IMG/VR virus record: IMGVR_UViG_3300037493_005407
Coordinates: 1-64,000 of that record
From: a virus
Length of the DNA: 64,000 nt
Direction: 5' to 3' (one strand)
Shown: one piece after another, positions 18,376 to 31,411 of the stretch
Numbering within the stretch: position 1 is the stretch's first letter
Layout: each line of letters begins with the position of its first letter
Made by a program: the position numbers and the translations under genes
Notes under the pieces: generated by a model
The model's database searches: none
What the model saw: only the letters and a program-made list of their open reading frames with translations
What the model was told of the DNA's origin: nothing

Positions 18376-18614
18376 GTACTCTCCTCCACGAGCAGCTTCC
18401 ACAGCTCGTTGATCTCCTCACGGTTACGGGCCTCATATTCCTCTTCTCTCCGCAAACGTTCCCGTGCCTCATCGAGCTCACGCTTGGCCTTTTCAAAATA
18501 CCGCTCGCACTCTTCGACTCCCTTCTTGTAAACGAATAGGTCGTGGACTACCTCCTTACGGAAGTCCCGTTTAGCGTCGTAGTCCTCCAGGATGCTGGCT
18601 TTACTCCTCTGCAT
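18372..18614 (-). CDS. Coiled-coil protein
   Basis: 80 aa, ATG with GAGAGAAGG upstream. Nearly all charged coiled coil (EECERYFEKAKRELDEARER...). It is directly coupled to the AcrVA2-like gene. Function unknown. Confidence 0.7.
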   Translation of the reverse strand: MQRSKASILEDYDAKRDFRKEVVHDLFVYKKGVEECERYFEKAKRELDEARERLRREEEYEARNREEINELWKLLVEEST

Positions 18615-18750
18615 AAACCTTCTCTCCTCGATATACTGACCGTGTGATTTCCCGGTACGCGTGGGGCTCCATAAAGAAGGAGTACTCAAGGGCGGTTAAG
18701 AACCCTTTTTCATCTGCTAGCACGCGGTCGTTTTCATACGCCGATTTCAT
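18601..18750 (-). CDS. GF-TA family miniprotein 1
   Basis: 49 aa, ATG 18750 with GTGAGGTG upstream. Core EKGFLTALEYSFFMEP followed by the second segment REITRSVYRGEK. First member at the downstream end of the miniprotein operon described at 18601-31411. Confidence 0.7.
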   Translation of the reverse strand: MKSAYENDRVLADEKGFLTALEYSFFMEPHAYREITRSVYRGEKVYAEE

Positions 18751-18757
18751 TAACACC

Positions 18758-19054
18758 TCACGACTTGTTAACATAGTCCGGAACTTTTCCGCACACCTTA
18801 TACCAACGAAGCATGTCATATGATGTTGCTAACGTTGGTTCTACGTGGTGTTGTTTGAGGATCACTTCGTACAGCACGCAGCCGCACGCGAACGCATTGG
18901 GTGGATACTGGTCAGTCGCCGCGGCTGCCACTGTACGGAAACCTGCTTCGCGCACCTCGCCCCCGAAGGCGCTCGATGAGAAGAAGCCTTCCTGCAAGTC
19001 GTTGACGAACTCCGAGACCCGCTCGTATTGCGTCAACCTTCGTTTATTGGGCAT
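18758..19054 (-). CDS. GF-TA family miniprotein 2
   Basis: 98 aa. Core EAGFRTVAAAATDQYP at residues about 36-51, then ACGCVLYEVILKQHH. The N-terminal extension is longer than usual, with a second Phe-Gly segment (EGFFSSSAFGG). Weak ribosome site (AGGAT). Confidence 0.65.
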   Translation of the reverse strand: MPNKRRLTQYERVSEFVNDLQEGFFSSSAFGGEVREAGFRTVAAAATDQYPPNAFACGCVLYEVILKQHHVEPTLATSYDMLRWYKVCGKVPDYVNKS

Positions 19055-19080
19055 GTGGGGATCCTAGTAAGGCGGACAGG

Positions 19081-19293
19081 TCAGTCGTCTACGCTCTCAA
19101 CCTCGACCTTAACGGCCGACTGGAGCTCGTGCTCGCTGAGGTCTTCGAAGACACTCGCCAGCACGTCGGTGAGGATGCTGGGGTCGTCGATATAGACCTG
19201 GCGGTCGACGTCAGCGATCTTCGATGGAACTTCGGTCTCGTAGTCTTCCGGGGTCACATCGTACGTAACGTTGATCTTCAATCTCAGCTTCAT
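19081..19293 (-). CDS. Hypothetical acidic protein
   Basis: 70 aa, ATGA overlap with the metalloprotease-like gene. Alternating beta strands (LRLKINVTYDVT; AVKVEVESVDD) around an acidic helix. Not a GF-TA member. Confidence 0.65.
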   Translation of the reverse strand: MKLRLKINVTYDVTPEDYETEVPSKIADVDRQVYIDDPSILTDVLASVFEDLSEHELQSAVKVEVESVDD

Positions 19294-19886
19294 AACTTTG
19301 CCTCCGCCAGCACTCGGTGGTGCTCTGTGATGGTCATGTGTGGGTAATTCTCTGTTAATAACAGATGCCCCACCTCATGTAACACAAGCGCCCGGGAACG
19401 TCCAAGGTCTTTAGGGCACCACTCGATAGCTATCTTCATACCTGACTGGTATCCCCCGATTTTTGTGTTAGGCCGATGTTGATCCTGTAACGCAGAGAAC
19501 GGATTAAGCTCGACGTAGTAGTAGATATCTCCCACGTGATGGTTGATAGCGATCTGTGGATGCGCATCGAGGGCGGCATCTGCCAATAACGCAAAACTTC
19601 CGACGTACATCGCAAACTCCCGCATGTCTCTGGTTCCCCGGTCGTAGGCGTAATGGCACAAGACTTCGTGCCTCTTGCCGCGGTACAGCACCCGCCGTTC
19701 ACGTCGCCATGCCTCCCAGATGAGCATCGCTGGGATGGCCGCGAACACTGCCACCATCGCCGCAGTCACACCCCTGGCAGCAGCTGCTCCGCAGAACGAA
19801 TACAGCCAGCTGCCTCCGATGATGACTAGAACGATAGCCAAACTGGGGAGAAAGAACCTGAGGATTGCGCGAGTACGTGCGGTCAT
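19290..19886 (-). CDS. Membrane protein with HExxH metalloprotease motif
   Basis: 198 aa, AGGAGG before ATG. Two N-terminal membrane helices (about 8-30 and 38-58), then a cytoplasmic domain with VLHEVGHLLLTENY near residue 168. HEVGH is the zincin signature, and a Glu/His follows within 25 residues (TITEHHRVLAEA). A phage-encoded membrane zinc peptidase is plausible; substrate unknown. Confidence 0.65.
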   Translation of the reverse strand: MTARTRAILRFFLPSLAIVLVIIGGSWLYSFCGAAAARGVTAAMVAVFAAIPAMLIWEAWRRERRVLYRGKRHEVLCHYAYDRGTRDMREFAMYVGSFALLADAALDAHPQIAINHHVGDIYYYVELNPFSALQDQHRPNTKIGGYQSGMKIAIEWCPKDLGRSRALVLHEVGHLLLTENYPHMTITEHHRVLAEAKL

Positions 19887-19894
19887 TGAACCTC

Positions 19895-20113
19895 CTACTT
19901 GATCAACATGTTGTCCGTCAGATCCGACTGTGGGGGCATCTTTCGCCCCTCACCGAAGTTTACAGTGACTCGAGCGCCACATTGCTTGCACTCAAACGTG
20001 TCACCGCTCCAGGAGATTCCGCACAGGTTATGGACTTCTTGGCCGGTCTTGTGACAGACCATGAACACGCCGCAGCGAGCGCACACAGGAACTTCGAGCT
20101 TGTTGATTGTCAT
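19895..20113 (-). CDS. Small zinc-ribbon protein
   Basis: 72 aa, ATG 20113 overlapping the upstream gene. CARCGVFMVCHKTG and FECKQCGARVTVNFG form a classic ribbon. Probably regulatory or adaptor. Confidence 0.7.
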   Translation of the reverse strand: MTINKLEVPVCARCGVFMVCHKTGQEVHNLCGISWSGDTFECKQCGARVTVNFGEGRKMPPQSDLTDNMLIK

Positions 20114-20406: not shown

Positions 20407-21046
20407 GTCGGATCCTATCTTCCACGCCGAGAAACATTAGGTCCTCCAAGACACATGGATCAAACGTCAGATCGAAGCGTTTCTCCTTAAAGAGGGGTAG
20501 GCAGTGTGTAACGAAGTATTCGCGGACGGTGTGGTTGGTATAGTCCGAGCTGATCGCAACGCCAATCGCTGATACGGTGTCCCAGTTGATGCGGCTGAGT
20601 CCGTACCAGATTTTGGCGTCAGGAATATGCCGCTGCTTATTCCCTTTTCGGGTGTAGAACTCCTCGACATTATCCCCGCGTCCCCGTCCTTTTGATAAGT
20701 AGACTTCTACGCCGTTATTCATAATCTGTCGAAACGACGTTACGTCCTTATTAGGTGCGAGCCACCGGTAACTCTGTACGCCTTTGACGTGGTTTACCCA
20801 GTTGCCACAATGGCACTTGCGATTTAGGCCCTCTTTGAGCTCTTCGAACTCAAGGTAATCTGAGTGCTCGTCCACGTTGATGAGCATGGTGGGTTGGTTC
20901 TGATTGACATGTTCAACCAGGTCTTCGTGACTTTCCACTAACACCGGCCGGCTGTAATGATTTCGGACTTTGTAGAAAAACTTGACGAGATCTGCCGGCG
21001 GTTTGGTGTTGAAGAAGTCGAGGTCAACGGATAGGTACGTCGACAT
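20393..21046 (-). CDS. UPF0489/arginase-fold-like protein
   Basis: 217 aa. YLSVDLDFF at the N-terminus and MLINVDEHSDYLEF near residue 55 resemble the metal-binding motifs (DxDxF and NVDxHxD) of UPF0489/arginase-deacetylase-like proteins. A CHCGNWVNH segment adds Cys/His. Hydrolase activity is possible; substrate unknown. Assignment is from motif recollection. Confidence 0.5.
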   Translation of the reverse strand: MSTYLSVDLDFFNTKPPADLVKFFYKVRNHYSRPVLVESHEDLVEHVNQNQPTMLINVDEHSDYLEFEELKEGLNRKCHCGNWVNHVKGVQSYRWLAPNKDVTSFRQIMNNGVEVYLSKGRGRGDNVEEFYTRKGNKQRHIPDAKIWYGLSRINWDTVSAIGVAISSDYTNHTVREYFVTHCLPLFKEKRFDLTFDPCVLEDLMFLGVEDRIRRAHF

Positions 21047-21185
21047 TTACTACCTTTCTCTCTAGTTGGATACTGTCGAAGATGCACAGGATGGCGGCAT
21101 CTCCTAGGACACCGCGGTCATTTGCGTAGTTCCAGGCGGTTTGGAATCCGATCATCGTGACGTTAGGTAAGTAGGACAGGGGCAT
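21024..21185 (-). CDS. GF-TA family miniprotein 3
   Basis: 53 aa from ATG 21185, which lies inside the 3' end of thyX. Core MIGFQTAWNYANDRGV and second segment ILCIFDSIQLERK. Close to the family consensus. Confidence 0.65.
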   Translation of the reverse strand: MPLSYLPNVTMIGFQTAWNYANDRGVLGDAAILCIFDSIQLERKVVNVDVPIR

Positions 21186-21783
21186 GCAGAACCACGATGT
21201 CCTCGTACAGGACGCGGTGACTCTCGGGTAGGCAGCGCCACATATCCTGTGCCAGGCGCTGGTATTCGAGGAGTGCATCCTTAGCGAGGCGCGTGTTGAA
21301 CAGGTTGCGCAGCGACCGCGCGTTGATAGTGACGTGAAGCTGCGTCAGCATCGAATCGGGGATGGCGTATTTTGCTACGTCGTTGGGAATTTTCTCCTGT
21401 ACCAACTCGCAAAGAGATTCCATCTGGCACTTGGACGCCATGTCTACCATCGCGTTTCCGGTGTGGTAATACAGCGCCTCAACGTCTACTTTCTTAGAAA
21501 GCAGTTTCTTGAGAGTGAAGCGAGAGCTGCGAACGCTCAGCGTCGCGATGCGGGTGCGGGCGAACTCCTGCAGGCAGGCCCGGGAGAGCTCGACCTCGAA
21601 GGTGTAGACGACGTGCTCGAGGACGCTGGTGTGGCCGCTCGAGATGCAGTGGCGCAGTAGCTTGGCGTCGTTTGGTCCGAGTATGTCCTTTACCGAGTCG
21701 TACTTATCCGCGGAGTCCTTACAGATGCGTGCAGCCTCCACGGCCGAAGTGATATCCGTGTGTCTTAGAAGCTTTGCTGACAT
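21163..21783 (-). CDS. thyX: Flavin-dependent thymidylate synthase ThyX
   Basis: 206 aa. Makes dTMP from dUMP using FAD, NADPH and methylene-tetrahydrofolate. GHTSVLEH (50-57) and RTRIATLSVRSSRF (76-89) correspond to the family signature RHRxxSxNxxSxRY in modified form, and TINARSLRNLFNTRLAKDALLE to the conserved C-terminal helix region. Length is typical of phage ThyX. Ribosome site GAGGA. It starts inside the upstream miniprotein gene and is embedded in the miniprotein operon, so it would be co-expressed with it. Confidence 0.9.
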   Translation of the reverse strand: MSAKLLRHTDITSAVEAARICKDSADKYDSVKDILGPNDAKLLRHCISSGHTSVLEHVVYTFEVELSRACLQEFARTRIATLSVRSSRFTLKKLLSKKVDVEALYYHTGNAMVDMASKCQMESLCELVQEKIPNDVAKYAIPDSMLTQLHVTINARSLRNLFNTRLAKDALLEYQRLAQDMWRCLPESHRVLYEDIVVLHAPVLLT

Positions 21784-21916
21784 TTCGTTGTTCCTCTATG
21801 AGTAGGTTGGCGGTCTCTTCAAGCACATCGAGTGCGTTCGACCCGTTGTCTGCGTCGTACGCGTACCAGTATGCCATGTTTATTCCGTTACGCGTGTCGA
21901 ATTTTAGGCTAGCCAT
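21719..21916 (-). CDS. GF-TA family miniprotein 4
   Basis: 65 aa, TGATG junction. Core RNGINMAYWYAYDADN (Ile for Phe, Met for Thr), second segment ALDVLEETANLLIEE. The last 20 residues overlap thyX by 65 bases and are His/Gly-rich, perhaps an extension after loss of an earlier stop. Confidence 0.6.
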   Translation of the reverse strand: MASLKFDTRNGINMAYWYAYDADNGSNALDVLEETANLLIEEQRNVSKASKTHGYHFGRGGCTHL

Positions 21917-22137
21917 CACGCATAACCTTGAGTTCTTAATTCACGGGATCTTACTAAGACATCTTGTAGCAGCGCTTCTTTAATATGAAATCGAGCGTTA
22001 ACGTTTTCAGGAGTAACCGCTGCGTCACAACAGAGTTCTCCGGCGTAAAACCAGGCTACCCTAGAACCAGCCTGATCTACGTTCCTTGAGAACGTACCAG
22101 ACTTAGACGCATATTTGATTTTTGGTTTCTTCGTCAT
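21916..22137 (-). CDS. GF-TA family miniprotein 5 (diverged)
   Basis: 73 aa. Core QAGSRVAWFYAGELCC keeps Gly, Ala-Trp and Tyr-Ala; second segment HIKEALLQDVLVRSREL. Basic N-terminus (MTKKPKIKYASK). ATGA overlaps. Confidence 0.6.
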   Translation of the reverse strand: MTKKPKIKYASKSGTFSRNVDQAGSRVAWFYAGELCCDAAVTPENVNARFHIKEALLQDVLVRSRELRTQGYA

Positions 22138-22316
22138 TGTTTTGATACCTCCGCAACCGACGCGTCAAGCACGCGGTATGCCCGCGGGTAGTAGAAGAAC
22201 ATCTTACTGTCTGCATCGCGCTTACACGTGTGCTGCCATGCTGTTAGGAAACCGTGGTAGTAATACTGCCAGTCGTCATCGTCTTCAGTGCGTTTCTTCT
22301 CCTTCTTCACCTTCAT
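22134..22316 (-). CDS. GF-TA family miniprotein 6
   Basis: 60 aa. Lys-rich then Asp-rich N-terminus, core YHGFLTAWQHTCKRDA, second segment RAYRVLDASVAEVSK. ATGA overlap at both ends. Confidence 0.7.
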   Translation of the reverse strand: MKVKKEKKRTEDDDDWQYYYHGFLTAWQHTCKRDADSKMFFYYPRAYRVLDASVAEVSKQ

Positions 22317-22516
22317 CCCAACCCCTTCCTAAGGAGCCTATCGATCTTTTTCTTGTACGAATACTCCGCTGATTTTGTGACCTGCTCTAGGCCCCGGTGG
22401 TGTACCAGGAAATTAGGACCGCCGAACTGGTCAACGATGATCCGCATGCAGTTGGCGTAATTGCACGCCTCCATAAAGCCTTCTTCGACTGCGTGTCGGA
22501 CGTCATACCCCTTCAT
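22313..22516 (-). CDS. GF-TA family miniprotein 7
   Basis: 67 aa. Core EEGFMEACNYANCMRI and second segment GLEQVTKSAEYSYKKK. Basic C-terminus (KKKIDRLLRKG). Confidence 0.7.
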   Translation of the reverse strand: MKGYDVRHAVEEGFMEACNYANCMRIIVDQFGGPNFLVHHRGLEQVTKSAEYSYKKKIDRLLRKGLG

Positions 22517-22703
22517 TTTCTAACCTCACAGCTGTGCGGATAGATTCTTCCACAAGGTTTCTGTTCATCACGTGGGTGTAAATAGGACCGAACACGCCGT
22601 TAGCCTGCTCGGTGCTCATGTAGCACGCGTAGTCGTACGCCGTTAAATAGCCACAGCGTATGCGGTCGTCCCTTTGGTAGGCTGGCTTCTTTTGCTTCTT
22701 CAT
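22503..22703 (-). CDS. GF-TA family miniprotein 8
   Basis: 66 aa. Core RCGYLTAYDYACYMST, second segment HVMNRNLVEESIRTAV. Basic N-terminus (MKKQKKPAYQRDDR). Confidence 0.7.
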   Translation of the reverse strand: MKKQKKPAYQRDDRIRCGYLTAYDYACYMSTEQANGVFGPIYTHVMNRNLVEESIRTAVRLENEGV

Positions 22704-22876
22704 CGGGAATCGTAAAGTAACTGGGCCATCCTTTCTTCATGGCTCATGTTGAGGCACGAGTTGTAGATCACCTCTCGAGAGTAGTCGTTACTCCTGGGTG
22801 TGTAGTTTAACGCCGCCGCGAATCCACGTATCATGACAATGGTTACGATGCGGTCATTGTCCAATAGCGCGGACAT
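22700..22876 (-). CDS. GF-TA family miniprotein 9
   Basis: 58 aa, ATG 22876 with GAGGA nearby. Core IRGFAAALNYTPRSND, second segment VIYNSCLNMSHEER. Longer readings of this frame lack a plausible ribosome site. Confidence 0.65.
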   Translation of the reverse strand: MSALLDNDRIVTIVMIRGFAAALNYTPRSNDYSREVIYNSCLNMSHEERMAQLLYDSR

Positions 22877-22880
22877 CTCC

Positions 22881-23234
22881 TCAGTCTGCGTCCTCATCCT
22901 CGTCTTCGACATCGGTGTCGGCATTGAGCTCCTCTTCTGATACTTCTTCACCGGCGGCACGCCGTGCTCTCGCCGCGGAGAGACGCTCTGCAGCCGCTTG
23001 GCGCTGCTCTGGAGTGAAGACACGGGCTGCGTCCGTCTTGAGCACGAGGCCCGCACGCTTGGGAGAGTACTTGACCCACTCGAGGTTGGGGGTGCTCTTC
23101 TTGTACGGCTGCCATGAGTAGAGCGAGCAGGCAGAGTTTCCGCAGTCCCGGTCACGGTCAAAGTAATGCCCCATGCAGTCGTGACACTTGGCAAGAACTG
23201 CAGCCTTCATGGATGGTTTGGCTTCTTTGGTCAT
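22881..23234 (-). CDS. Cys-rich conserved phage protein
   Basis: 117 aa. CHDCMGHYFDRDRDCGNSACSLYSW is a four-to-five Cys site related to a common phage domain (CxDC...C...C-L). It is followed by a basic linker, an Ala/Arg helix and an acidic tail (TDVEDEDEDAD). Not a GF-TA member. Confidence 0.7.
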   Translation of the reverse strand: MTKEAKPSMKAAVLAKCHDCMGHYFDRDRDCGNSACSLYSWQPYKKSTPNLEWVKYSPKRAGLVLKTDAARVFTPEQRQAAAERLSAARARRAAGEEVSEEELNADTDVEDEDEDAD

Positions 23235-23413
23235 CGGTTCTCCTTTGTTCCCATCAGGATTAACAGCTCTCCAATTTGGTCTAGGCTGATCATTCGCATG
23301 GATTCGTCGATAACAGTTTTTACTGCGCGGTTCGCATCGAGTACTACCGTGCTAAACCCGAGCATTTCGTGAGCTTTTTCTTGCGGTATTACTACCTTGG
23401 GTAGGGGCCTCAT
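23231..23413 (-). CDS. GF-TA family miniprotein 10
   Basis: 60 aa. Core MLGFSTVVLDANRAVK, second segment VIDESMRMISLDQIG. ATGA overlaps both neighbours. Confidence 0.65.
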   Translation of the reverse strand: MRPLPKVVIPQEKAHEMLGFSTVVLDANRAVKTVIDESMRMISLDQIGELLILMGTKENR

Positions 23414-23607
23414 CGTAGGTACAGATTCCCGTAGTCAGTGCACATATGCCAAAGAGTATTCTCGATGGCGTGTGTGTCCTGATGCTCAACTGCGAAGTGC
23501 TTGCGCCTCCAATATTGGAGAATCCGCGCATGGCCCATCGCTTGCGTCATCCCCCAGAGTCCGTAGGTCTTGCTTACGATACGGGGCTTCTTAGACTGGT
23601 AGTCCAC
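23410..23607 (-). CDS. GF-TA family miniprotein 11 (diverged)
   Basis: 65 aa. Core TYGLWGMTQAMGHARI, with the T-A step altered; second segment HAIENTLWHMCTDYG. Confidence 0.6.
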   Translation of the reverse strand: MDYQSKKPRIVSKTYGLWGMTQAMGHARILQYWRRKHFAVEHQDTHAIENTLWHMCTDYGNLYLR

Positions 23608-23825
23608 TACTTTCTCTTTTGTAGGAATGACTCACTCTCCTCTAACGCGCTCAGTTCTATCATGTGGCGTTGATGACCGTTATAGTACAGGTTATCAGCG
23701 AGTACGGTAGCATGAATAAACGACGTTGTTAACCCGTACTTATGGATCAAGTAGTTTACTGTTATGCTGTTAGCTCGAATCTTTTGGTAATCCTTCGGGA
23801 GAGCGTCCGTACCACTCATCCTCAT
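23607..23825 (-). CDS. GF-TA family miniprotein 12
   Basis: 72 aa (or 70 from the second ATG); AAGGAG upstream. Core KYGLTTSFIHATVLAD, second segment HMIELSALEESESFL. Overlaps the gene before by 56 bases. Confidence 0.65.
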   Translation of the reverse strand: MRMSGTDALPKDYQKIRANSITVNYLIHKYGLTTSFIHATVLADNLYYNGHQRHMIELSALEESESFLQKRK

Positions 23826-23982
23826 CTCCTTTCTCTTCGAACATCCGCATACTGATGGTTATGACGCGAACAGCACGCGCTCCTCGCCACCCAATATCCG
23901 TCATCTTTGCGAGAGTGGTGGCGTGTTGGTTAGCGGTGTTGAACCCGCGGAAGGCGTCCGCGATGGCGCTAGATGAGAACAT
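23770..23982 (-). CDS. GF-TA family miniprotein 13
   Basis: 70 aa from ATG 23982. Core FRGFNTANQHATTLAK, second segment AVRVITISMRMFEEK. The last about 20 residues overlap the next gene and have a different composition. Confidence 0.65.
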   Translation of the reverse strand: MFSSSAIADAFRGFNTANQHATTLAKMTDIGWRGARAVRVITISMRMFEEKGDEDEWYGRSPEGLPKDSS

Positions 23983-24319
23983 GCGGATCCCACGCACACG
24001 GCAACGAAAGCCCTAGTGGCGCGCGGACAACGTAGTCTTCGATGTCGAAGCGCACCGAAGCAAAGAACATTTCTTGACTGTCGTGCAGTTTGAAAGTGAT
24101 CTCGTGCGTGCTGCGTTCCGCGTGAATCTTCCAACCAGAGCGCCACTCCCCCAATTCTTTCTGCTTCTTGCTGTACCTGCGAATAGAGCACCCGCCGCCG
24201 CCATTAAAGATGTGTGCGAACTTAGACGAGTGCACCCGTAGCTCATCGCGCTCGGGCAATACAATCAAGATGTGGTTGTCGATGATGCCGTTTAGAAACG
24301 TGATAGTTGGATTTTTCAC
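23969..24319 (-). CDS. Hypothetical protein inside the miniprotein operon
   Basis: 116 aa, GTG start overlapping the previous stop (GTGA) with AGGA upstream. Beta-rich (ITFLNGIIDNHILIVLPERDELRVHSSKF), with a GGGG turn; no GF-TA core. Fold not recognised. Confidence 0.65.
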   Translation of the reverse strand: MKNPTITFLNGIIDNHILIVLPERDELRVHSSKFAHIFNGGGGCSIRRYSKKQKELGEWRSGWKIHAERSTHEITFKLHDSQEMFFASVRFDIEDYVVRAPLGLSLPCAWDPHVLI

Positions 24320-24612: not shown

Positions 24613-24616
24613 GCTG

Positions 24617-25395: not shown

Positions 25396-25403
25396 GCTAC
25401 CTC

Positions 25404-25562
25404 CTACTTGAAGTACCAGACGCTGTTATGCACCACGGCTACAGCCGCGACGCGTTCGGAGTGCAGATACATCTGGAGTTTGGCGAAGTCGTAGGCGGTG
25501 CTGAACCCCGCCTTCTCAACGCTCGATTTGGGGATTGGTGGTTTTGGTCTTACTGGTTTCAT
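25404..25562 (-). CDS. GF-TA family miniprotein 17
   Basis: 52 aa, ATGA overlap with the next upstream gene. Pro/Lys N-terminus (MKPVRPKPPIPKSS), core KAGFSTAYDFAKLQMY, second segment VAVVHNSVWYF. Near-perfect consensus. Confidence 0.7.
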   Translation of the reverse strand: MKPVRPKPPIPKSSVEKAGFSTAYDFAKLQMYLHSERVAAVAVVHNSVWYFK

Positions 25563-25831
25563 TCGTCTTCCATCCAAACTGGATGACGTGCGTAGTGCTC
25601 TGCCTCCTCACAGATGTCCAAGATCCACAGACGCAAGGTATGACGGGCACATGGGCTTATGCGGGTGTAGTCACGTTTGAGCTCGTTGGCATACCGGAAG
25701 GCGACGCTGACACCCGCGCGCTGTAACTCACTTAGGTCTGGGTCAAAGAAGGCTTTGTTGTTCCAGTCTTTGCGTGTGCGGCTACTCCGGCGGCGGTTAG
25801 GGCTGAAGCCTCTTCCCACTATGTACTGCAT
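25559..25831 (-). CDS. GF-TA family miniprotein 18
   Basis: 90 aa. Arg-rich N-terminus, core RAGVSVAFRYANELKR (Val for Phe and Thr), second segment HTLRLWILDICEEAEH. Confidence 0.65.
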   Translation of the reverse strand: MQYIVGRGFSPNRRRSSRTRKDWNNKAFFDPDLSELQRAGVSVAFRYANELKRDYTRISPCARHTLRLWILDICEEAEHYARHPVWMEDE

Positions 25832-26175
25832 GTTTCCTCTTTATCGAGCATGTACTCCGGGACGTTCTTGGAGCAGTGTTGCCACGCTAAGATAAGGTCC
25901 TGTACATAGAACTTTTGAGCTTCAACAGTCATCCGTTGCCTACGCTCACAGATAATGATTCCTACATGGTCTATTTTGCCAGACTGAAACGCGCGGTAAT
26001 ACGCCGTATCCCATCCGTACCTAACATCCACTGGAGCATCCGGCACATAACCAGCTGCAAAGGTAACTGAGCGGTATTCAATTGCGGCTAGGTTTAGAAA
26101 ATGCCTCCTCCTCTTTAGTGACGCCGTCTTCTTTTCACGTTTAGTACGCCAGTCGTGACGTGAGTTGTGCGCCAT
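25819..26175 (-). CDS. GF-TA family miniprotein 19 (long)
   Basis: 118 aa, ATG 26175 after GGGAGA. Basic N-terminal extension, core RYGWDTAYYRAFQSGK near residue 58, and second segment MTVEAQKFYVQDLILAW. The longest basic extension in the family. Confidence 0.65.
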   Translation of the reverse strand: MAHNSRHDWRTKREKKTASLKRRRHFLNLAAIEYRSVTFAAGYVPDAPVDVRYGWDTAYYRAFQSGKIDHVGIIICERRQRMTVEAQKFYVQDLILAWQHCSKNVPEYMLDKEETCST

Positions 26176-26335
26176 GCTTTTTCTCCCACCCATAGCGGCC
26201 TAGCTTTCCATCTCCGGTGTACTCTCTAACTTGTGTGACGCTATTTGTGATGATGGTAATATGGATATGACTCCACGCGTTGCAGTAAACAGTTCCGAAG
26301 CCAGCCCGATAGTTTTGCATGTACTGTTTGTCCAT
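26141..26335 (-). CDS. GF-TA family miniprotein 20
   Basis: 64 aa from ATG 26335. Core RAGFGTVYCNAWSHIH, then ITIITNSVTQVREY. The whole core is overlapped, in another frame, by the upstream member ending at 26200. No clear ribosome site. Confidence 0.55.
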   Translation of the reverse strand: MDKQYMQNYRAGFGTVYCNAWSHIHITIITNSVTQVREYTGDGKLGRYGWEKKHGAQLTSRLAY

Positions 26336-26526
26336 GTCTCGCGCAAGTTGTCTACGAGATACTGTCTCCCAATGATCTTCCCTGACGCATCGGAAATCAG
26401 CATGTGCTGCCGCTTCATGGTATCCAGGGACTTGTGTATCTCCCATTCGACTCCTAGTCCGTCGCGGTTATCGTACGCGGTTGAGTAACCAAAGTAGTCA
26501 GCGAGGCTCTGATAGCTCAGAGGCAT
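26200..26526 (-). CDS. GF-TA family miniprotein 21
   Basis: 108 aa, ATG 26526 with ACGGAG upstream. Core YFGYSTAYDNRDGLGV near the N-terminus, second segment EIHKSLDTMKRQHM. The last about 45 residues overlap the next gene by 136 bases and may be an out-of-frame extension after loss of the original stop. Confidence 0.6.
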   Translation of the reverse strand: MPLSYQSLADYFGYSTAYDNRDGLGVEWEIHKSLDTMKRQHMLISDASGKIIGRQYLVDNLRETWTNSTCKTIGLASELFTATRGVISILPSSQIASHKLESTPEMES

Positions 26527-26680
26527 ATACCACTCCGTAGTCTTTCCAGTTTTTCTGACACCACTGAACCGTGTCATAGATAACGTTGAACGGCCGCTCT
26601 ACGGGTGGCTGCATCATCGAAGAGTGCTCGTACGCAACAGATAGTCCGAAGTGATTAACCAAATCCGAAAATATGCTCAT
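26498..26680 (-). CDS. GF-TA family miniprotein 22
   Basis: 60 aa, start at the ATG following GGGAGGA. Core HFGLSVAYEHSSMMQP, second segment NVIYDTVQWCQKNWKDYG. The second segment is encoded by the 45-base repeat found again at 25331. Confidence 0.65.
   Translation of the reverse strand: MSIFSDLVNHFGLSVAYEHSSMMQPPVERPFNVIYDTVQWCQKNWKDYGVVYASELSEPR
26537..26581. repeat. 45-base direct repeat, copy B
   Basis: Matches 25331-25375 (43/45). Here it encodes YDTVQWCQKNWKDY of a GF-TA gene, probably its source. Confidence 0.85.
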
Positions 26681-26706
26681 ACGCGCGTCCTCCCACTTTA
26701 CAGGTA

Positions 26707-26943
26707 TTAGTGTCGCAGCCATTCCATTTCCAGATCGCGCTGTGTGACGTGCAGCATAATCATCTGACGGTCGTCGTCGTAGATTGTGCCGTTGCGGAGC
26801 TCGAACAAGTGCTGCACGACTTCACGTAGACCGGCGACATCGAACTTTCTGAAACCGTAGGTAAACCAGAAATAATTATCTGTATCGAGCGATGTAAAAA
26901 TCTGTGGTTTCTCTTGTACCTCTCCATCTCTGTTATCTGGCAC
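26707..26943 (-). CDS. GF-TA family miniprotein 23 (diverged)
   Basis: 78 aa, GTG start with GGAG 7 bases upstream. Core TYGFRKFDVAGLREVV, second segment MIMLHVTQRDLEME. It lies almost wholly inside the next upstream member in another frame. Confidence 0.55.
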   Translation of the reverse strand: MPDNRDGEVQEKPQIFTSLDTDNYFWFTYGFRKFDVAGLREVVQHLFELRNGTIYDDDRQMIMLHVTQRDLEMEWLRH

Positions 26944-27029
26944 TTGGCTAGCTCCATGAGTCCGTGGAATTCAGCGGTTGCGAATCCCATCACAACTAAA
27001 AGATCCGCTGGTTGGGTGGTGTCAGACAT
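26760..27029 (-). CDS. GF-TA family miniprotein 24
   Basis: 89 aa. Core VMGFATAEFHGLMELA at residues 13-28. After residue about 35 the composition (Ser/Thr-rich, CSTCSSSATAQSTTTT) suggests translation past a lost stop; this part overlaps the preceding entry by 184 bases. Confidence 0.55.
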   Translation of the reverse strand: MSDTTQPADLLVVMGFATAEFHGLMELAKCQITEMERYKRNHRFLHRSIQIIISGLPTVSESSMSPVYVKSCSTCSSSATAQSTTTTVR

Positions 27030-27243
27030 ACGCTGTCTCCGTATTCAAGAGCACCCAAGTGCTCTCGCGGATGATATCCCTCCCGGTGTTGGTGAGCCCT
27101 AGGCATTTCTTACAGTGGTACACATAGTGTTCGTCCTCGATGGTTTTCGCGTATTCCCAGGAAGTCTTAAACCCTTTCGTAGTTACGTGCGTGTGATGCA
27201 CGTTTACCATGAGGCCAGAGCATGTGCGGTTGTTCATGGCCAC
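27022..27243 (-). CDS. GF-TA family miniprotein 25
   Basis: 73 aa. Core TKGFKTSWEYAKTIED, then HCKKC (single Cys knuckle) and second segment RDIIRESTWVLLN. Confidence 0.65.
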   Translation of the reverse strand: MAMNNRTCSGLMVNVHHTHVTTKGFKTSWEYAKTIEDEHYVYHCKKCLGLTNTGRDIIRESTWVLLNTETAYV

Positions 27244-27434
27244 GGAGGATTCCGTAACTGTTTAGCTTTTTCGATAGACATAAAGATAGTGGTATATCCC
27301 GCAGCATAAAGGACTGTTTTTGAGTGGCTCAGCGCTTCCCAGTATCCCGCGGCAAAGGCGACTCTATCCCGGTCTAGGTCACTTGTAATGTGCAGGGGGT
27401 TCCAAGTACGTACACTCGGTTTTTTGAACGACAT
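27234..27434 (-). CDS. GF-TA family miniprotein 26
   Basis: 66 aa. Core AAGYWEALSHSKTVLY, second segment TIFMSIEKAKQLRN. Basic/aromatic N-terminus. Confidence 0.65.
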   Translation of the reverse strand: MSFKKPSVRTWNPLHITSDLDRDRVAFAAGYWEALSHSKTVLYAAGYTTIFMSIEKAKQLRNPPWP

Positions 27435-27437
27435 GCT

Positions 27438-27704
27438 TCACCGTGTTGGGTAGAAAAATTCCTTCTTCTCGATTGTGAGTGATTCGTGCAACTTCCACAT
27501 TACTTTGGCGTCGTACTCATCTTCTATAATCTCGTACGTGTAATCTAGGACGGTCCAGTAACCTCGCTGAATAGCGATACTATCACGCTCGGTGTCATCC
27601 CGGACAGTCGTTTTGGCCGCAACAGCGCGCCGCTGCCCACTCATGTCCCAGATCCACGTGACATCCTTTGTTATGCGCTGCTGGTCTGGCTTAGGTCTAG
27701 GCAT
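27438..27704 (-). CDS. GF-TA family miniprotein 27
   Basis: 88 aa. Core QRGYWTVLDYTYEIIE at residues about 47-62, second segment VMWKLHESLTIEKKE. Its start overlaps the upstream member by 34 bases. Confidence 0.65.
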   Translation of the reverse strand: MPRPKPDQQRITKDVTWIWDMSGQRRAVAAKTTVRDDTERDSIAIQRGYWTVLDYTYEIIEDEYDAKVMWKLHESLTIEKKEFFYPTR

Positions 27705-27841
27705 GTCTGCGCCTCGATGCTCTCCCAGATAACGTTATGTATCCGCCCAAACAGATTTCCTTTCATCTTGGACATGGAGTACCAGTACGCCTCGGCAAAC
27801 CCGTCGAGGCAATCTAGGAGGGTTGGGCTGTTACCGTCCAT
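27671..27841 (-). CDS. GF-TA family miniprotein 28
   Basis: 56 aa, ATG overlapping the preceding stop by 11 bases. Core LDGFAEAYWYSMSKMK, second segment RIHNVIWESIEA, very close to VIYDTVQW of member 22. Confidence 0.7.
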   Translation of the reverse strand: MDGNSPTLLDCLDGFAEAYWYSMSKMKGNLFGRIHNVIWESIEAQTCLDLSQTSSA

Positions 27842-28055
27842 GGATCACCAGTCTAGTGACGGTATCATAGAGCTCGGAAGCATCAGGACCCTGGAGGACG
27901 TTAAAGGTCTTTACCAGCGTCTTCAGCTCGTGACTGTACTCGAGACTTTCTACGTGGTGCAAGGCCGCTGCGAATCCGTAGCGTTCGGCATTGTCCTGAA
28001 ACTGGTTTTTGTCGAACTTACCAACGTAGACGTTACTATACGGCGGTAGGATCAC
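27831..28055 (-). CDS. GF-TA family miniprotein 29
   Basis: 74 aa. Core RYGFAAALHHVESLEY, then TLVKTFNVLQGPDASELYDT. The VLQG-D segment recurs in the member at 31163, giving residue-level evidence that the proteins are paralogues. Confidence 0.7.
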   Translation of the reverse strand: MILPPYSNVYVGKFDKNQFQDNAERYGFAAALHHVESLEYSHELKTLVKTFNVLQGPDASELYDTVTRLVIHGR

Positions 28056-28236
28056 CTGGTAGTTCCTTTCCTGCGAAATACGACAACGTCTTTTTCACTT
28101 CCGCGAACTGATGCTGCTGTTGTGGCGACCCCCACTGCTCATTCAGCTCCAGGTAGCCGACGATGTTATAAACCGTTAGCATCCCCCAGGCTTCAATAAA
28201 TGCACTGTGGCGTATGGTCAGATGTGCTCTCGTCAT
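28036..28236 (-). CDS. GF-TA family miniprotein 30 (diverged)
   Basis: 66 aa. Core EAWGMLTVYNIVGYLE keeps L-T-V and Tyr; second segment FAEVKKTLSYFAG. Confidence 0.55.
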   Translation of the reverse strand: MTRAHLTIRHSAFIEAWGMLTVYNIVGYLELNEQWGSPQQQHQFAEVKKTLSYFAGKELPGDPTAV

Positions 28237-28399
28237 GCCTCCTCCAGTGTTCCTCCGTCATGGACCTTCCTAGGGCCTCGAGTTGTTCACTCTCCCGGTA
28301 GTACTCCTTACCGTTTCTGAGGGTGTATACGTCCATGTGTTTCCGAGCCGTGTAGAATCCGAGCTGCTTATATTGCGTGGGATCGAAGCGTAAGACCAT
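28193..28399 (-). CDS. GF-TA family miniprotein 31
   Basis: 68 aa. Core QLGFYTARKHMDVYTL, second segment SEQLEALGRSMTEEH. The His-rich C-terminus overlaps the next gene. Confidence 0.65.
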   Translation of the reverse strand: MVLRFDPTQYKQLGFYTARKHMDVYTLRNGKEYYRESEQLEALGRSMTEEHWRRHDESTSDHTPQCIY

Positions 28400-28523
28400 C
28401 TATGGCCCTCCGTATCAGCGTTAAGTGCAGCATGGACTGTGCCCAGCCTTCATCGATCATGATATGTGAATACGCAGTACCAAAGCCAGCGTCTTCAGCT
28501 TGTTCTTGGTAGACCAGTGCCAT
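28368..28523 (-). CDS. GF-TA family miniprotein 32
   Basis: 51 aa, ATG after AGGAGCAAGCG. Core DAGFGTAYSHIMIDEG, second segment MLHLTLIRRAIDG. Near-consensus minimal member. Confidence 0.7.
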   Translation of the reverse strand: MALVYQEQAEDAGFGTAYSHIMIDEGWAQSMLHLTLIRRAIDGLTLRSHAI

Positions 28524-28740
28524 CGCTTGCTCCTAGTAATTTGAAGAAGTTGACGCTGCGGGAGACCTCAATCAAATGCGAGCGGTTGATACCGCGAGGA
28601 GCGGCGCACGTAATGTACTCCCGTATGGCGTAGAAGCCCCACTTCTCATGCTCGGGCCAGTTTACCGGCGTGTCATACCCATCGTTTCGTTCTGTATAGC
28701 CGTTACCACGCTGCACCGTAACATGCGCATGCCGTCCCAT
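28495..28740 (-). CDS. GF-TA family miniprotein 33
   Basis: 81 aa. Core KWGFYAIREYITCAAP, second segment HLIEVSRSVNFFK. Confidence 0.65.
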   Translation of the reverse strand: MGRHAHVTVQRGNGYTERNDGYDTPVNWPEHEKWGFYAIREYITCAAPRGINRSHLIEVSRSVNFFKLLGASDGTGLPRTS

Positions 28741-28898
28741 GGTTTACGCCTCTTTTTGAGTTTTTGGTAAATGTTCGTGGTGTAAACAAAGGCTGACCAG
28801 TAGCCGTACGTTTCGTAAGCGAGGCTCTCCTCGTCGAACAGCACGGTGCTGATGAGCTTGTTTCGTTCTTGGGTTTCGGGGTCTGGTTTTACTACCAA
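28662..28898 (-). CDS. GF-TA family miniprotein 34
   Basis: 78 aa from TTG 28898, chosen because AAGAGGCG lies just upstream and it overlaps the previous stop. Core TYGYWSAFVYTTNIYQ, second segment MLRCSVVTAIQNE. Overlaps the next gene by 79 bases. Confidence 0.6.
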   Translation of the reverse strand: MVVKPDPETQERNKLISTVLFDEESLAYETYGYWSAFVYTTNIYQKLKKRRKPWDGMRMLRCSVVTAIQNETMGMTRR

Positions 28899-29089
28899 CC
28901 TACGCCTCTTATAAGGGTTTCGAGTGTCATGTGAAGTGCATTGATTTGGTTCGCTACCTGCTCGTGTTGCCAGCAACGCGGTATGTACTTTTTGATGCAT
29001 CCCGTTGCAACGGCGAGGTCGTTCGAGAATTCGCGAGCGGTGCGTAACCCGCATACTTCGTACAGGTCACGCATGGGCTTATAGAGCAT
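28892..29089 (-). CDS. GF-TA family miniprotein 35
   Basis: 65 aa. Core VCGLRTAREFSNDLAV close to the N-terminus, second segment NALHMTLETLIRG. Confidence 0.65.
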   Translation of the reverse strand: MLYKPMRDLYEVCGLRTAREFSNDLAVATGCIKKYIPRCWQHEQVANQINALHMTLETLIRGVGW

Positions 29090-29300
29090 GACCTTTTCCC
29101 CATTCCCTCCATAGATTGTTTAGGGTGTCTATGATTGCGTCCACTTGGTAACGCACCGACTCGCTTTTTCCGTGCCATACGTCTGGTAGTTCGTCGTCTG
29201 CTACGTACTCCTTGTCTTGTGTGTATCGGCGGGCTGTTAGGACTCCTACCGTCGCGTATTGAACACGTCGTTCTTCAGAGATGTGCAGGGGTGGTTTCAT
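29079..29300 (-). CDS. GF-TA family miniprotein 36
   Basis: 73 aa. Core TVGVLTARRYTQDKEY, second segment QVDAIIDTLNNLWRE. Confidence 0.65.
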   Translation of the reverse strand: MKPPLHISEERRVQYATVGVLTARRYTQDKEYVADDELPDVWHGKSESVRYQVDAIIDTLNNLWREWGKGHAL

Positions 29301-29454
29301 TTGGGCTCGATAGCAGTAGCGCTACAATAGTTCGTTGAATTTCTTCCCATTCTCTCCTGGACACGGTCCACCGGTTATCTTCCATTAAATAATGGAGTAT
29401 CGTTTCTAACCCAGCGTCTTGATAACGCTTAAAGAAGGGCGGTAGTGATTTCAT
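29275..29454 (-). CDS. GF-TA family miniprotein 37
   Basis: 59 aa from ATG 29454 (GGAAAC upstream). Core DAGLETILHYLMEDNR, second segment EEIQRTIVALLLS. Confidence 0.65.
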   Translation of the reverse strand: MKSLPPFFKRYQDAGLETILHYLMEDNRWTVSRREWEEIQRTIVALLLSSPNETTPAHL

Positions 29455-29632
29455 AGATTGTTTCCAAATCAGACAGGGTGTAGCGAAGTTCATTCCACGC
29501 GCCTGTGTACTTTTCGCTGTGCTCCAGGAGCAGTAGGTGACTGATCGCTATGAGAGTTCCGTGTAGGTGGTGGCGCGCGAAGTAGGCGTGGTTTAATAAA
29601 CCCTCAGATTTATCACCACTTGTTAACGGCAT
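29429..29632 (-). CDS. GF-TA family miniprotein 38 (diverged)
   Basis: 67 aa from ATG 29632. Core SEGLLNHAYFARHHLH has Gly and aromatic positions but a shifted Ala-Tyr; second segment LRYTLSDLETIYEI fits the family well. Confidence 0.6.
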   Translation of the reverse strand: MPLTSGDKSEGLLNHAYFARHHLHGTLIAISHLLLLEHSEKYTGAWNELRYTLSDLETIYEITTALL

Positions 29633-29978
29633 CGCGTACCTGATTTTGAAGGTCACGCATCTGCCATCCCCGGCCCATCTTGGAACTGAAGATGCCGAGG
29701 TCCGCGGCGATCTTCTTCATGAGGGCAAGCCCGTGCACGCCTTCCAGGGCATTGATGGGAGCACCGTTCATGTCGAACAGCTGGGACTTAGGATTCCGCT
29801 TTTCCGTGGTGTGGCGCTCGGCGACATCCTTGAGGACTGTGGGAGGCACTCCCAGCTCGACGAGTTGTGCGATTGCGTAAATGGTGTGACCGTCTCCGCC
29901 GAGGAAATCGAGAATCTCTTCGACCTTTTCTTTTCCGAGTTCTTTGGTCCAATTCATTGTGGTTGAATCTGTAGCCAT
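29613..29978 (-). CDS. Helical protein, not GF-TA
   Basis: 121 aa. Well-behaved soluble helical protein with the GDGHTIYAIAQLVELGVPP segment, then VLKDVAERHTTEKRNPKS and LMKKIAADLGIFSSK, hinting at a helix-turn-helix-like DNA-binding fold. Unproven. Could be a regulator within the operon. Confidence 0.65.
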   Translation of the reverse strand: MATDSTTMNWTKELGKEKVEEILDFLGGDGHTIYAIAQLVELGVPPTVLKDVAERHTTEKRNPKSQLFDMNGAPINALEGVHGLALMKKIAADLGIFSSKMGRGWQMRDLQNQVRDAVNKW

Positions 29979-30151
29979 GGGTAATCCTCTCTTGCTGCGT
30001 TTTCGATGCTTTGAGCGAGTTCGAAGCGGGATATGTCAAGGACACATCCTGGGATGTTTAGTTGGTGCCAAGCGGCCGTGGTGTAACCACAGTCATCGGC
30101 GATTTGTGTGAACCTTGCGGAGTAGTTCCATTCAAACAGGGTGTCTTCCAT
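29954..30151 (-). CDS. GF-TA family miniprotein 39
   Basis: 65 aa. Core DCGYTTAAWHQLNIPG, second segment RFELAQSIENAARED. It lies downstream of the minus-strand copy of the promoter-like element. Confidence 0.65.
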   Translation of the reverse strand: MEDTLFEWNYSARFTQIADDCGYTTAAWHQLNIPGCVLDISRFELAQSIENAAREDYPWLQIQPQ

Positions 30152-30209
30152 TCAGAGGCTCCAAGACGATTAGGATGGTGTGGTCTGGAAGGATTTCGCA
30201 GATAACGAC

Positions 30210-30431
30210 TCAGAGCTCCGGGTGTGCCTCGAGCTGGTTACCCGCTGTACGTAGGGCGCCTTCAGGCGTCATCACAATGCGGATGCGCGTTAGTGAACCC
30301 TCAGCATTCTTCTCCTGGACATAGGACCCCTGCATGACGACTACCTCCTGGATTTGTGTTTTGGTGCACCCACCTAGGAGAAAGGCTAGTACTACAACGA
30401 GCCTTTTACCAAAAGTGCATGCGGATTCCAT
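30210..30431 (-). CDS. Small lipoprotein
   Basis: 73 aa from ATG 30431. Basic n-region (GKR), hydrophobic core LVVVLAFLL and lipobox LGGC at about residues 19-22, so the mature N-terminus would be a lipidated Cys followed by about 50 residues. Possible outer-membrane partner (o-spanin-like) of the membrane coiled-coil proteins, but distance and length make this speculative. Confidence 0.6.
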   Translation of the reverse strand: MESACTFGKRLVVVLAFLLGGCTKTQIQEVVVMQGSYVQEKNAEGSLTRIRIVMTPEGALRTAGNQLEAHPEL

Positions 30432-30568
30432 TGCAGAGGTCCGTCGTATTTTTTCCATTGTCCGTTCACTTTACTATAAACGACGTCGCATTCACAACAT
30501 TGAATAACCGTCTCAGAGTACATCATGATGTTACTCGCGCACTCGGGGCACGTGTCGAACTCGGGCAT
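30392..30568 (-). CDS. Zinc-ribbon miniprotein
   Basis: 58 aa from ATG 30568 with GGAAACC upstream. CPECASNIMMYSETVIQCCEC is a compact ribbon. Not GF-TA. Confidence 0.65.
   Translation of the reverse strand: MPEFDTCPECASNIMMYSETVIQCCECDVVYSKVNGQWKKYDGPLQWNPHALLVKGSL
30402..30415 (-). promoter_or_regulatory. Minus-strand copy of the promoter-like element
   Basis: Read leftward, CTTTTGGTAAAAGG matches the rightward copies (best to 44210). It lies inside the overlap of two genes, so it may be coincidental coding sequence or an internal promoter for genes from 30151 downward. Confidence 0.3.
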
Positions 30569-30570
30569 GA

Positions 30571-30843
30571 TTATGGTTTCCAATCCAGGAACTCCTTCTG
30601 GTGAAAACAAAACCCGATAGCCGTTGCCAGACAATACGCCCTGTTGTTTTTCAAGATCTCGTCACAGTAACTTAGGACCGTAGTGAATCCTTGGTCATAC
30701 GCAAAGAATATGACTCCATCGTTGCTTTCCCCAGAGGCCATCACAACCCTATTTAGTAAACGGTATTCGTCTAAACGTGGGATATCTTCAGTTAAGAAAC
30801 GTAAAAAATATTCACGTGTACTAAAGTGCGGATTACTGCTCAT
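30571..30843 (-). CDS. GF-TA family miniprotein 40
   Basis: 90 aa. Core DQGFTTVLSYCDEILK near residue 50 after a helical N-terminal extension, then AYCLATAIGFCFHQKEF. Confidence 0.65.
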   Translation of the reverse strand: MSSNPHFSTREYFLRFLTEDIPRLDEYRLLNRVVMASGESNDGVIFFAYDQGFTTVLSYCDEILKNNRAYCLATAIGFCFHQKEFLDWKP

Positions 30844-31042
30844 TTCTTGCGGCCTCTTCCGTCACCATACTGATATGCATTTGCATGTTACGGTAGATAA
30901 GGGTGGCTGTTTCGCTTCTTTCCCACCTACCCTGTGTATGACTTAGGAAGATACTGTGTGTTGTTACCGTATAGAAGCCGGCAGCTTCTCCATAGTGCAT
31001 ATTGAGATTTCTGAAGTCGAGCTGAGCAGAGTCGCTAATCAT
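30833..31042 (-). CDS. GF-TA family miniprotein 41
   Basis: 69 aa, GGAGG upstream. Core AAGFYTVTTHSIFLSH, second segment ATLIYRNMQMHIS. Confidence 0.65.
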   Translation of the reverse strand: MISDSAQLDFRNLNMHYGEAAGFYTVTTHSIFLSHTQGRWERSETATLIYRNMQMHISMVTEEAARNEQ

Positions 31043-31202
31043 CTTTTGTTTCCTCCGCGATTACTCCTTCGTTCATGCGGGAGCTTACTGTTTCGAGAAT
31101 GAGTTCAACGGCGAGGGCGGTCGTTACGGAGCGGAGGGCTGTTTCGAAGCCTTCCCCATCGGCTAAGGCATAGAGCATTTCGGTGGCGATGTCAGCTCCC
31201 AT
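31035..31202 (-). CDS. GF-TA family miniprotein 42
   Basis: 55 aa, ATG after AAAGGGGCGGT. Core GEGFETALRSVTTALA, second segment VELILETVSSRMNE. Start overlaps the upstream member by 40 bases. Confidence 0.7.
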   Translation of the reverse strand: MGADIATEMLYALADGEGFETALRSVTTALAVELILETVSSRMNEGVIAEETKDD

Positions 31203-31411
31203 ACCGCCCCTTTCAGCGTGTCGTTAAGGTCAGGAAAAAAGGCGTGTAGGTCTTTGCCCTGAAGGACGTCCAAGGTGTCCAGGATGACCTGCCCCGCTTC
31301 GCCGCGCCACGCCATCATATGCACCGTAATTAGACCGTGCTCCTTGAGGGCGTGCATGCGAAAGACACCTTCGAGATTTTCGTTTGGTTTATCCTGGTGC
31401 TTAAGCGTCAT
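31163..31411 (-). CDS. GF-TA family miniprotein 43
   Basis: 82 aa from ATG 31411 (GAGGT upstream). Core EHGLITVHMMAWRGEA, then VILDTLDVLQGKDLHAFFPD. VLQG-D matches member 29. Upstream-most clear member of the family. Confidence 0.65.
   Translation of the reverse strand: MTLKHQDKPNENLEGVFRMHALKEHGLITVHMMAWRGEAGQVILDTLDVLQGKDLHAFFPDLNDTLKGAVWELTSPPKCSMP

Follow-up and report, generated by a model that had tools for sequence, protein, structure and literature searches.

A tandem array of about 40 strongly diverged mini-protein genes with a predicted three-helix module in a large phage

A leftward array of short genes with a shared module

The minus strand of a viral genome fragment, IMG/VR record IMGVR_UViG_3300037493_005407, carries between 18.6 and 31.4 kb an array of about 55 tightly packed genes with short overlaps between neighbours. 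About 40 of these share one module, which consists of a core of approximately G-[FYLW]-x-T-A-x-x-[YH]-[AS] and a downstream segment h-h-x-x-[ST]-h (h, hydrophobic). About 12 unrelated genes, including the one for the thymidylate synthase ThyX, break up the array (Table 1). The analysed stretch, here called the window, comprises 64,000 of the 64,944 bases of the record; end repeats are absent, and the record is probably a fragment of a larger genome.

An earlier note, made from the sequence alone, had described a leftward array of short genes at 18601-31411, and the genes found there indeed all point leftward. Its figure of about 43 mini-proteins comes down to about 40 family genes: the module list holds 44 candidates picked by eye from the core, two of them within one gene, four open reading frames (ORFs) are doubtful and the unrelated genes are interspersed. 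The products are short, as claimed (47-125 amino acids, aa), although the lengths of several ORFs are inflated owing to upstream starts.

The G-F-x-T-A core proposed in the same note was confirmed by two counts. Its strict form G[FYW]xT[AV] occurs in 22 of the 77 minus-strand ORFs of the region, whereas 1000 residue shuffles gave 0.29 on average and never more than 4. Furthermore, an unbiased enumeration of gapped four-residue patterns, taking in all minus-strand ORFs of 40-160 aa in the window (258 ORFs), ranked GF.TA first, with 12 ORFs versus 0.2 expected. The second conserved segment that had been noticed downstream is present as well: 23 of the 44 modules have h-h-x-x-[ST]-h after the core versus 6.6 expected (strict form: 12 versus 2.4), which represents a check independent of the choice of cores by eye.

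Profiles built from half of the cores detected the held-out members above the shuffled background, recovering 7-10 of 11 at E<1 compared to 1.3-1.8 matches per shuffled set. Whole-module half-profiles were weaker, a sign of how strongly the members have diverged, and found just 4-10 of 18-19 held-out modules at E<0.1 (shuffled: about 0.1-0.2 matches per set). Leave-one-out searches with realignment in a search space of about 680 ORFs found 35 of 39 modules again at E<1; the stricter thresholds of E<0.1 and E<0.01 left 21 and 14, respectively. The full profile matched 38 ORFs at E<2e-5, all on the minus strand, these being the ORFs that the profile itself contains. Similarity between members is low (about 15% identity, a mean column identity of 13% and a single pair at blastp E<0.01). 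As judged from these comparisons, the window contains one amplified, strongly diverged protein family.

Two non-family genes of the region were recorded as side observations. A small lipoprotein-like gene with an LLGGC lipobox lies within the array at 30210-30458 (-), and the gene at 19290-19886 (-) encodes 198 aa with a hydrophobic N-terminal stretch and the sequence HEVGH (HExxH, metallopeptidase-like), with a weak homolog in the related genome G001. Scans for sigma-70 promoters and terminators gave scores at or below chance.

Table 1. Features of the array region in window coordinates; a motif given after the core is the helix-3 motif
Feature	Position	Strand	Basis
Family gene, core GLITVHMMA, VILDTL	31163..31411	-	profile member; held-out recovery failed
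Family gene, core GFETALRSV, LILETV	31035..31202	-	strict core + full profile
Family gene, core GFYTVTTHS	30833..31042	-	strict core + full profile
Family gene, core GFTTVLSYC	30571..30843	-	strict core + full profile
Family gene, core GYTTAAWHQ	29954..30151	-	strict core + full profile
Doubtful family gene, GTLIAISHL	29429..29632	-	by eye only
Family gene, core GLETILHYL	29275..29454	-	full profile
Family gene, core GVLTARRYT	29079..29300	-	full profile
Family gene, core GLRTAREFS	28892..29089	-	leave-one-out E 0.004
Family gene, core GYWSAFVYT, start uncertain (TTG)	28662..28898	-	full profile
Family gene, core GFYAIREYI	28495..28740	-	full profile; leave-one-out E 0.07
Family gene, core GFGTAYSHI	28368..28523	-	leave-one-out E 1.4e-4
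Family gene, core GFYTARKHM	28193..28399	-	leave-one-out E 0.01
Family gene, core GMLTVYNIV	28036..28236	-	full profile; leave-one-out E 0.11
Family gene, core GFAAALHHV	27831..28055	-	leave-one-out E 1.5e-4
Family gene, core GFAEAYWYS, VIWESI	27671..27841	-	leave-one-out E 0.038
Family gene, core GYWTVLDYT	27438..27704	-	leave-one-out E 0.017
Family gene, core GYWEALSHS	27234..27434	-	leave-one-out E 0.007
Family gene, core GFKTSWEYA	27022..27243	-	leave-one-out E 0.006
Doubtful family gene, core GFATAEFHG; ORF enters next gene in other frame	26760..27029	-	core profile (built with it); weak in full profile
Doubtful family gene, GFRKFDVAG	26707..26943	-	full profile E 0.91; E<0.1 in one half-split
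Family gene, core GLSVAYEHS, VIYDTV	26498..26722	-	full profile
Family gene, core GYSTAYDNR; about 140 nt ORF overlap with next gene	26200..26526	-	strict core + full profile
Family gene, core GFGTVYCNA	26141..26341	-	strict core + full profile
Family gene, long N-terminus, core GWDTAYYRA	25819..26193	-	core profile (built with it); left out of full profile
Divergent family gene, core GVSVAFRYA; same predicted helix order	25559..25831	-	full profile; AlphaFold
Family gene, core GFSTAYDFA	25404..25562	-	leave-one-out E 3.4e-4
52-nt piece, 90% identical to 26537-26588 (3' part of gene 26498-26722)	25331..25382	-	sequence comparison
Family gene, core GFETAAECS	24753..25031	-	strict core + full profile
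Family gene, shortest, core GFSTAMAHA	24617..24760	-	leave-one-out E 0.004
Two-module family gene, GFDTAYQQH + GYSEVWNHC in one chain	24316..24612	-	two profile matches
Family gene, core GFNTANQHA	23770..23982	-	leave-one-out E 0.004
Family gene, core GLTTSFIHA	23607..23819	-	leave-one-out E 0.008
Family gene, core GMTQAMGHA	23410..23607	-	full profile
Family gene, core GFSTVVLDA, VIDESM	23231..23413	-	strict core + full profile
Family gene, core GFAAALNYT	22700..22876	-	full profile
Family gene, core GYLTAYDYA; AlphaFold pLDDT 82, three helices	22503..22703	-	leave-one-out E 3.3e-4
Family gene, core GFMEACNYA	22313..22516	-	full profile
Family gene, core GFLTAWQHT, VLDASV	22134..22316	-	leave-one-out E 1.7e-4
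Divergent family gene, core GSRVAWFYA	21916..22137	-	E 2.6e-7 with full profile incl. itself; leave-one-out E 8.6
Family gene, core GINMAYWYA	21719..21919	-	full profile
ThyX thymidylate synthase, non-family, inside array	21163..21783	-	Pfam PF02511 5.7e-37
Family gene, core GFQTAWNYA	21024..21185	-	leave-one-out E 0.012
Doubtful family gene, GFRTVAAAA	18758..19054	-	core profile (built with it); full profile E 0.39
Outlying family gene, core GFLTALEYS	18601..18750	-	leave-one-out E 2.9e-4

Conserved positions, predicted fold and age

Counted from the invariant Gly (position 0), the conserved positions on the N-terminal side are -8 (aromatic-rich), -4 and -1 (both small or hydrophobic). The Gly is followed by an aromatic residue (+1), Thr (+3), Ala/Val (+4) and a hydrophobic residue (+5), and further on by Tyr/His (+7), Ala/Ser (+8) and a Leu-rich position (+11). 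Positions +1, +4, +5, +7, +8 and +11 are mostly hydrophobic or small, with mainly Tyr or His at +7, and a charged residue is favoured in none of the conserved columns.

AlphaFold, run on the product of gene 22503-22703 with 39 aligned modules, predicted helices at 11-17, 20-34 and 48-64 (pLDDT 82, pTM 0.62); Gly18 is part of the first turn, which connects helix 1 to helix 2. For the divergent, Thr-less member 25559-25831, helices were predicted at 33-39, 42-53 and 60-82 (pLDDT 71, core about 80; pTM 0.36), and Gly40 takes the equivalent turn position. Both runs were built on a single shallow alignment of paralogs only and are not independent, because they use one common set of aligned modules. 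We take the order of the helices in the prediction as established, and in this predicted fold Gly-aromatic-x-Thr is the turn joining helices 1 and 2. A C-capping Gly with a following hydrophobic residue, and then an N-capping Thr, is a standard helix-helix linkage, which informs folding and not binding. The earlier note had proposed a hugely expanded and diverged two-helix module; one helical module with both conserved segments in predicted helices fits this description, but three helices describe it better.

Because none of the conserved columns is charged and their positions are mainly hydrophobic or small, a conserved scaffold would fit better than an active site. The modules are slightly acidic, with a mean charge of -1.1, 13 of 44 at -3 or lower and just 4 of 44 at +3 or higher. 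Together with the lack of a conserved charge, this disfavours both an active site common to the members and nucleic-acid binding as a general property of the class. PDB sequences gave no match to solved structures, and Foldseek against PDB and viral models returned nothing below E 2.8. These data bear on the idea that the genes encode DNA- or RNA-binding regulators. With its Gly-aromatic-x-Thr turn between two helices, the module bears a superficial resemblance to a helix-turn-helix, and for the about 35 zinc ribbons of Bacillus phage G regulator or DNA-binding (transcription-factor) roles were proposed (Iyer et al., 2021; PMC7824862). However, the acidity of the modules does not favour such a role, and a DNA-binding fold was found neither by profile nor by Foldseek. 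On module charge and fold searches we dropped the helix-turn-helix regulator as leading idea and consider a regulatory function quite improbable.

The codons of the invariant Gly (9 GGT, 9 GGC, 13 GGA and 13 GGG) match background use, and the Thr and Ala codons of the core are likewise spread across all synonyms, much as in the background. Since the Gly codons are randomised and synonymous sites saturated, the core is conserved at the protein level and old. Adjacent modules resemble each other more than in shuffled order (p=0.002), a sign of tandem duplication. The 52-nt piece at 25331-25382, which now lies in a different frame at the beginning of ORF 24964-25395, is the remnant of a recent duplication. 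Neighbour likeness, this piece and the two-module gene 24316-24612 together indicate that the array has grown by tandem duplication and is still changing. We regard both this mode of growth and the age and protein-level conservation of the core as established.

In a largely neutral amplification, headful packaging would tolerate extra DNA, and duplicates would keep a harmless fold with little function. In line with this, jumbo genomes were suggested to grow partly via tandem duplication (Hua et al., 2017; PMC5646251), the amplified family differs among relatives, and one remnant, the 52-nt piece, is visible. Against it, almost every copy is an open gene that overlaps its neighbours, and the core was kept despite the saturated synonymous sites, so that we consider this explanation rather unlikely.

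Related phages and their arrays

The virion genes of the window, including those for the sheath (51758-54505) and the capsid (59304-60218), match environmental metagenome records of up to about 210 kb, and an identical capsid is encoded on a 7-kb contig, IMGVR_UViG_3300037485_001950. The closest isolates are Salmonella phage Arash (180.8 kb; capsid identity 41%) and the Vibrio phages D69, D148 and D181 (about 187 kb). The source phage is a member of a large myovirus group. The window also carries a tmRNA gene at 3274-3614 (+) with the tag AEPQEMLKAA.

While the family profiles detect 28-38 places in their own record, they had no match at E<=10 in 28 related contigs, in a partly overlapping contig set including Arash and Vibrio phage D69, or in phages 121Q (KM507819) and G (JN638751). 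With hmmsearch, the ORFs of 121Q gave a best E of 0.26, and a sequence relation to the family was not found; all ORFs of the fetched loci gave a single match (E 0.15), which was treated as chance. Given the sensitivity of the profiles in the leave-one-out searches, lone distant members elsewhere could escape detection. An array, in contrast, offers dozens of similar modules and should have been detected. The genes at 17047, 19290 and 20393 have homologs in G001, which there flank a syntenic region that lacks the family.

Nearby copies of the array were not found by megablast of phages, by scans of viral contigs with the 451-aa neighbour, ThyX, the 217-aa gene and one member, or by one genome-contig scan. 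A scan with the 117-aa gene pointed to five weak loci, and a profile search of three of these found no match. Searches of Pfam, PHROG, NCBIfam and PADLOC, the last being a library of defence systems, yielded only isolated single-member matches at chance level; no Pfam or PHROG family was matched by more than one member.

The same pattern enumeration was applied to 14 related genomes and revealed other arrays, for which the regular expressions were written after the patterns were seen and the counts include some overlapping or shadow ORFs. G018 (IMGVR_UViG_3300045051_000909) has about 25 ORFs with a C-x2-C...H...C module at 39.6-63.1 kb (+), compared to 0.1 expected; this module, C-x2-C-x6-H-A-x-x-x-K-C-L-[FY]-x-P-[TS] and often DHA..GKCLFEPT, has unrelated sequences attached at either end. 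In G019 (IMGVR_UViG_3300032401_000001), about 21 ORFs at 65.7-83.4 kb (+) contain C-x2-C-[PE]-x-[SA]-L-x-C versus 0.0 expected, with an N-terminal module TCDxCPxSLLC and variable tails. The largest small-gene arrays of this analysis (G-[VLI]-V-H ... C ... TCxxC) were found in G023 (IMGVR_UViG_3300042090_002485), with about 76 ORFs containing TC[VAM]xC or VTCxxC, mainly at 127-184 kb (+), versus 1.9, and in G026 (IMGVR_UViG_3300035180_002714), with about 41 ORFs containing TC[LFMIV]xC[ILMV] at 26-75 kb (+) versus 0.2 expected. By their common G-[VLI]-V-H and TCxxC elements, these two arrays are apparently one family. G001 has 10 ORFs with Y[LV]xEK versus 0.5 expected, dispersed over two areas. 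In Arash (OQ632216.1), eight of nine consecutive proteins of about 60-70 aa (gp73c-gp81c, 47003-48743) are alike, most with GDxV, and two of them match phrog_2251; Arash is a cultivable relative bearing a small array. Tested members of the metagenomic arrays had no Pfam or PHROG match at a meaningful level.

Thus, at least four further founder modules, five with Arash, have been amplified in phages that have virion genes in common with the source phage. Pattern enumeration found no array in G002, G003, G006, G008, G015, G016, G017 and G024. Two candidates were rejected: CREN/FLRCREN in short ORFs of G006 (IMGVR_UViG_3300049489_001303; 20.9-23.1 kb) looks like a repeated DNA element and is probably not a protein array, and the AYxxG pattern in G015, G016 and G017 probably reflects N-termini of virion proteins.

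The module of G018, C-x2-C...DHA...KCLFEPT, joined to unrelated sequences at either end, and TCDxCPxSLLC with its variable tails in G019 are tag-like. Such an attachable module makes it more plausible that the members are adaptors, docked by a common module on one phage or host machine (RNA polymerase, ribosome, protease or phage compartment), with the variable parts as cargo or effectors. In the window, however, the conserved positions are those expected to hold helices together and carry no conserved charge, and most members consist of little more than the module. We consider a common hub somewhat unlikely. The paralogs could also occupy different positions as subunits of one hetero-oligomeric phage assembly; they share one operon and one fold, and the two-module gene could mimic a dimer. 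Forty kinds of subunits at about 15% identity would be far beyond known assemblies, and phages with the same virion genes lack the family, which makes such an assembly very improbable.

Possible function and comparison with known systems

Our favoured explanation, to which we assign a probability of roughly 0.45, is a tandemly duplicated three-helix protein with a conserved fold and diversified surfaces that supplies small binders for host takeover or counter-defence. In a large contractile-tailed phage of the 180-200 kb class, the gene for one three-helix protein of about 50-60 residues would have been tandemly duplicated about 40 times in one leftward operon. Selection would have retained only the residues that hold the fold, namely the C-capping Gly, the aromatic residue, the N-capping Thr and the Ser/Thr of helix 3, as well as the faces of helices 2 and 3 that carry small and hydrophobic residues, whereas exposed surfaces and tails could diverge freely. 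Most likely, the products would then act as small binding proteins while the phage takes over the cell. Each would be matched to its own host protein, and the targets would include defence proteins. Purely structural conservation, different partners for each member, early expression and a role in takeover or counter-defence are what we infer; a partner-specific inhibitor or adaptor function, as the earlier note had suggested, fits the pattern as a candidate.

Old purifying selection at fold positions, free divergence elsewhere, lineage-specific presence and operon packing are counted in favour of small binders. That relatives have other small-protein arrays in place of this family would be expected if the proteins are used in a fast-changing conflict with hosts. 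Several points weigh on the other side: a close relative of the array was not found in our searches; no member matched a known anti-defence or takeover protein in Pfam, PHROGs, NCBIfam, PADLOC or PDB sequences; the predicted models rest on one shallow paralog-only alignment, with no match to a solved fold; and in these models the conserved face could be a shared interface rather than a hydrophobic core.

Much of the genome of large phages consists of small genes that lack homologs and, for the most part, an explanation; here, about 40 of them form one family. As relatives have other founders, part of this dark matter may stem from repeated cycles of founding and amplification, and the sequences suggest that related phages repeatedly mass-produce and diversify one mini-protein. 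It is possible, and we propose it only tentatively, that each lineage amplifies its own founder module into about 10-75 diverged paralogs, which serve as evolving libraries of binders against host machinery and defences, like the effector families of eukaryotic pathogens, and are renewed per lineage. If members bind different host proteins, each array would amount to a naturally occurring collection of compact inhibitors. Arrays of this type are overlooked by the usual clustering on homology (Pfam, PHROGs, pairwise blast), but a simple gapped residue-pattern count along one strand detects them.

The earlier note had known of no described system alike, a claim that does not hold, as tandem arrays are on record for phage G and Escherichia phage 121Q (Asteriusvirus). 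Hua et al. (2017) reported them in both phages and called the genes very similar, and a 2026 review of jumbo phages repeated the remark without assigning a function. The kind of object is therefore known in outline, and the system is not unique. As in the window, these arrays comprise more than 30 one-strand tandem paralogs in a large myovirus, and gp322-341 of 121Q have the same layout: near-equal neighbours of about 74 aa with the core GT[NDQ][YH]Q in 19 ORFs versus 0.3 expected. In contrast, they have no sequence relation to the window family, whose members share only about 15% identity. In 121Q (KM507819.1) we observed three runs of equal-size small genes, at 131358-135194, 156333-160781 and about 162900-188300 (about 61, 74 and 180 aa).

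AcrID1 of the rudiviruses SIRV1-3 is another case of small virus proteins duplicated side by side, with 26 of 35 homologs close together in four viruses (PMC11065993), and we count it as a precedent for small binders. However, AcrID1 belongs to archaeal viruses, has far fewer copies per genome and a known anti-CRISPR activity, while the window family lacks a sequence match to a solved structure. T4 is reported to amplify the anti-toxin gene tifA (PMC9391042), and SegB to drive amplification of anti-defence loci in T6 (PMC13096335). Such counter-defence genes, amplified by recombination under pressure, offer a plausible first step to an array; these amplifications are recent, whereas the window array is old and diversified. 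The arrays of the relatives G018, G019, G023/G026, G001 and Arash likewise consist of small diverged paralogs (10-76 by regular expression, 8 in Arash) in phages that share capsid and sheath genes, but their founders are three Cys/His zinc-like modules, a YLxEKG family and the GDxV proteins (phrog_2251). Compared to the open-access literature that we searched, the family itself is new, as are its extreme divergence and the finding that related phages differ in their founder.

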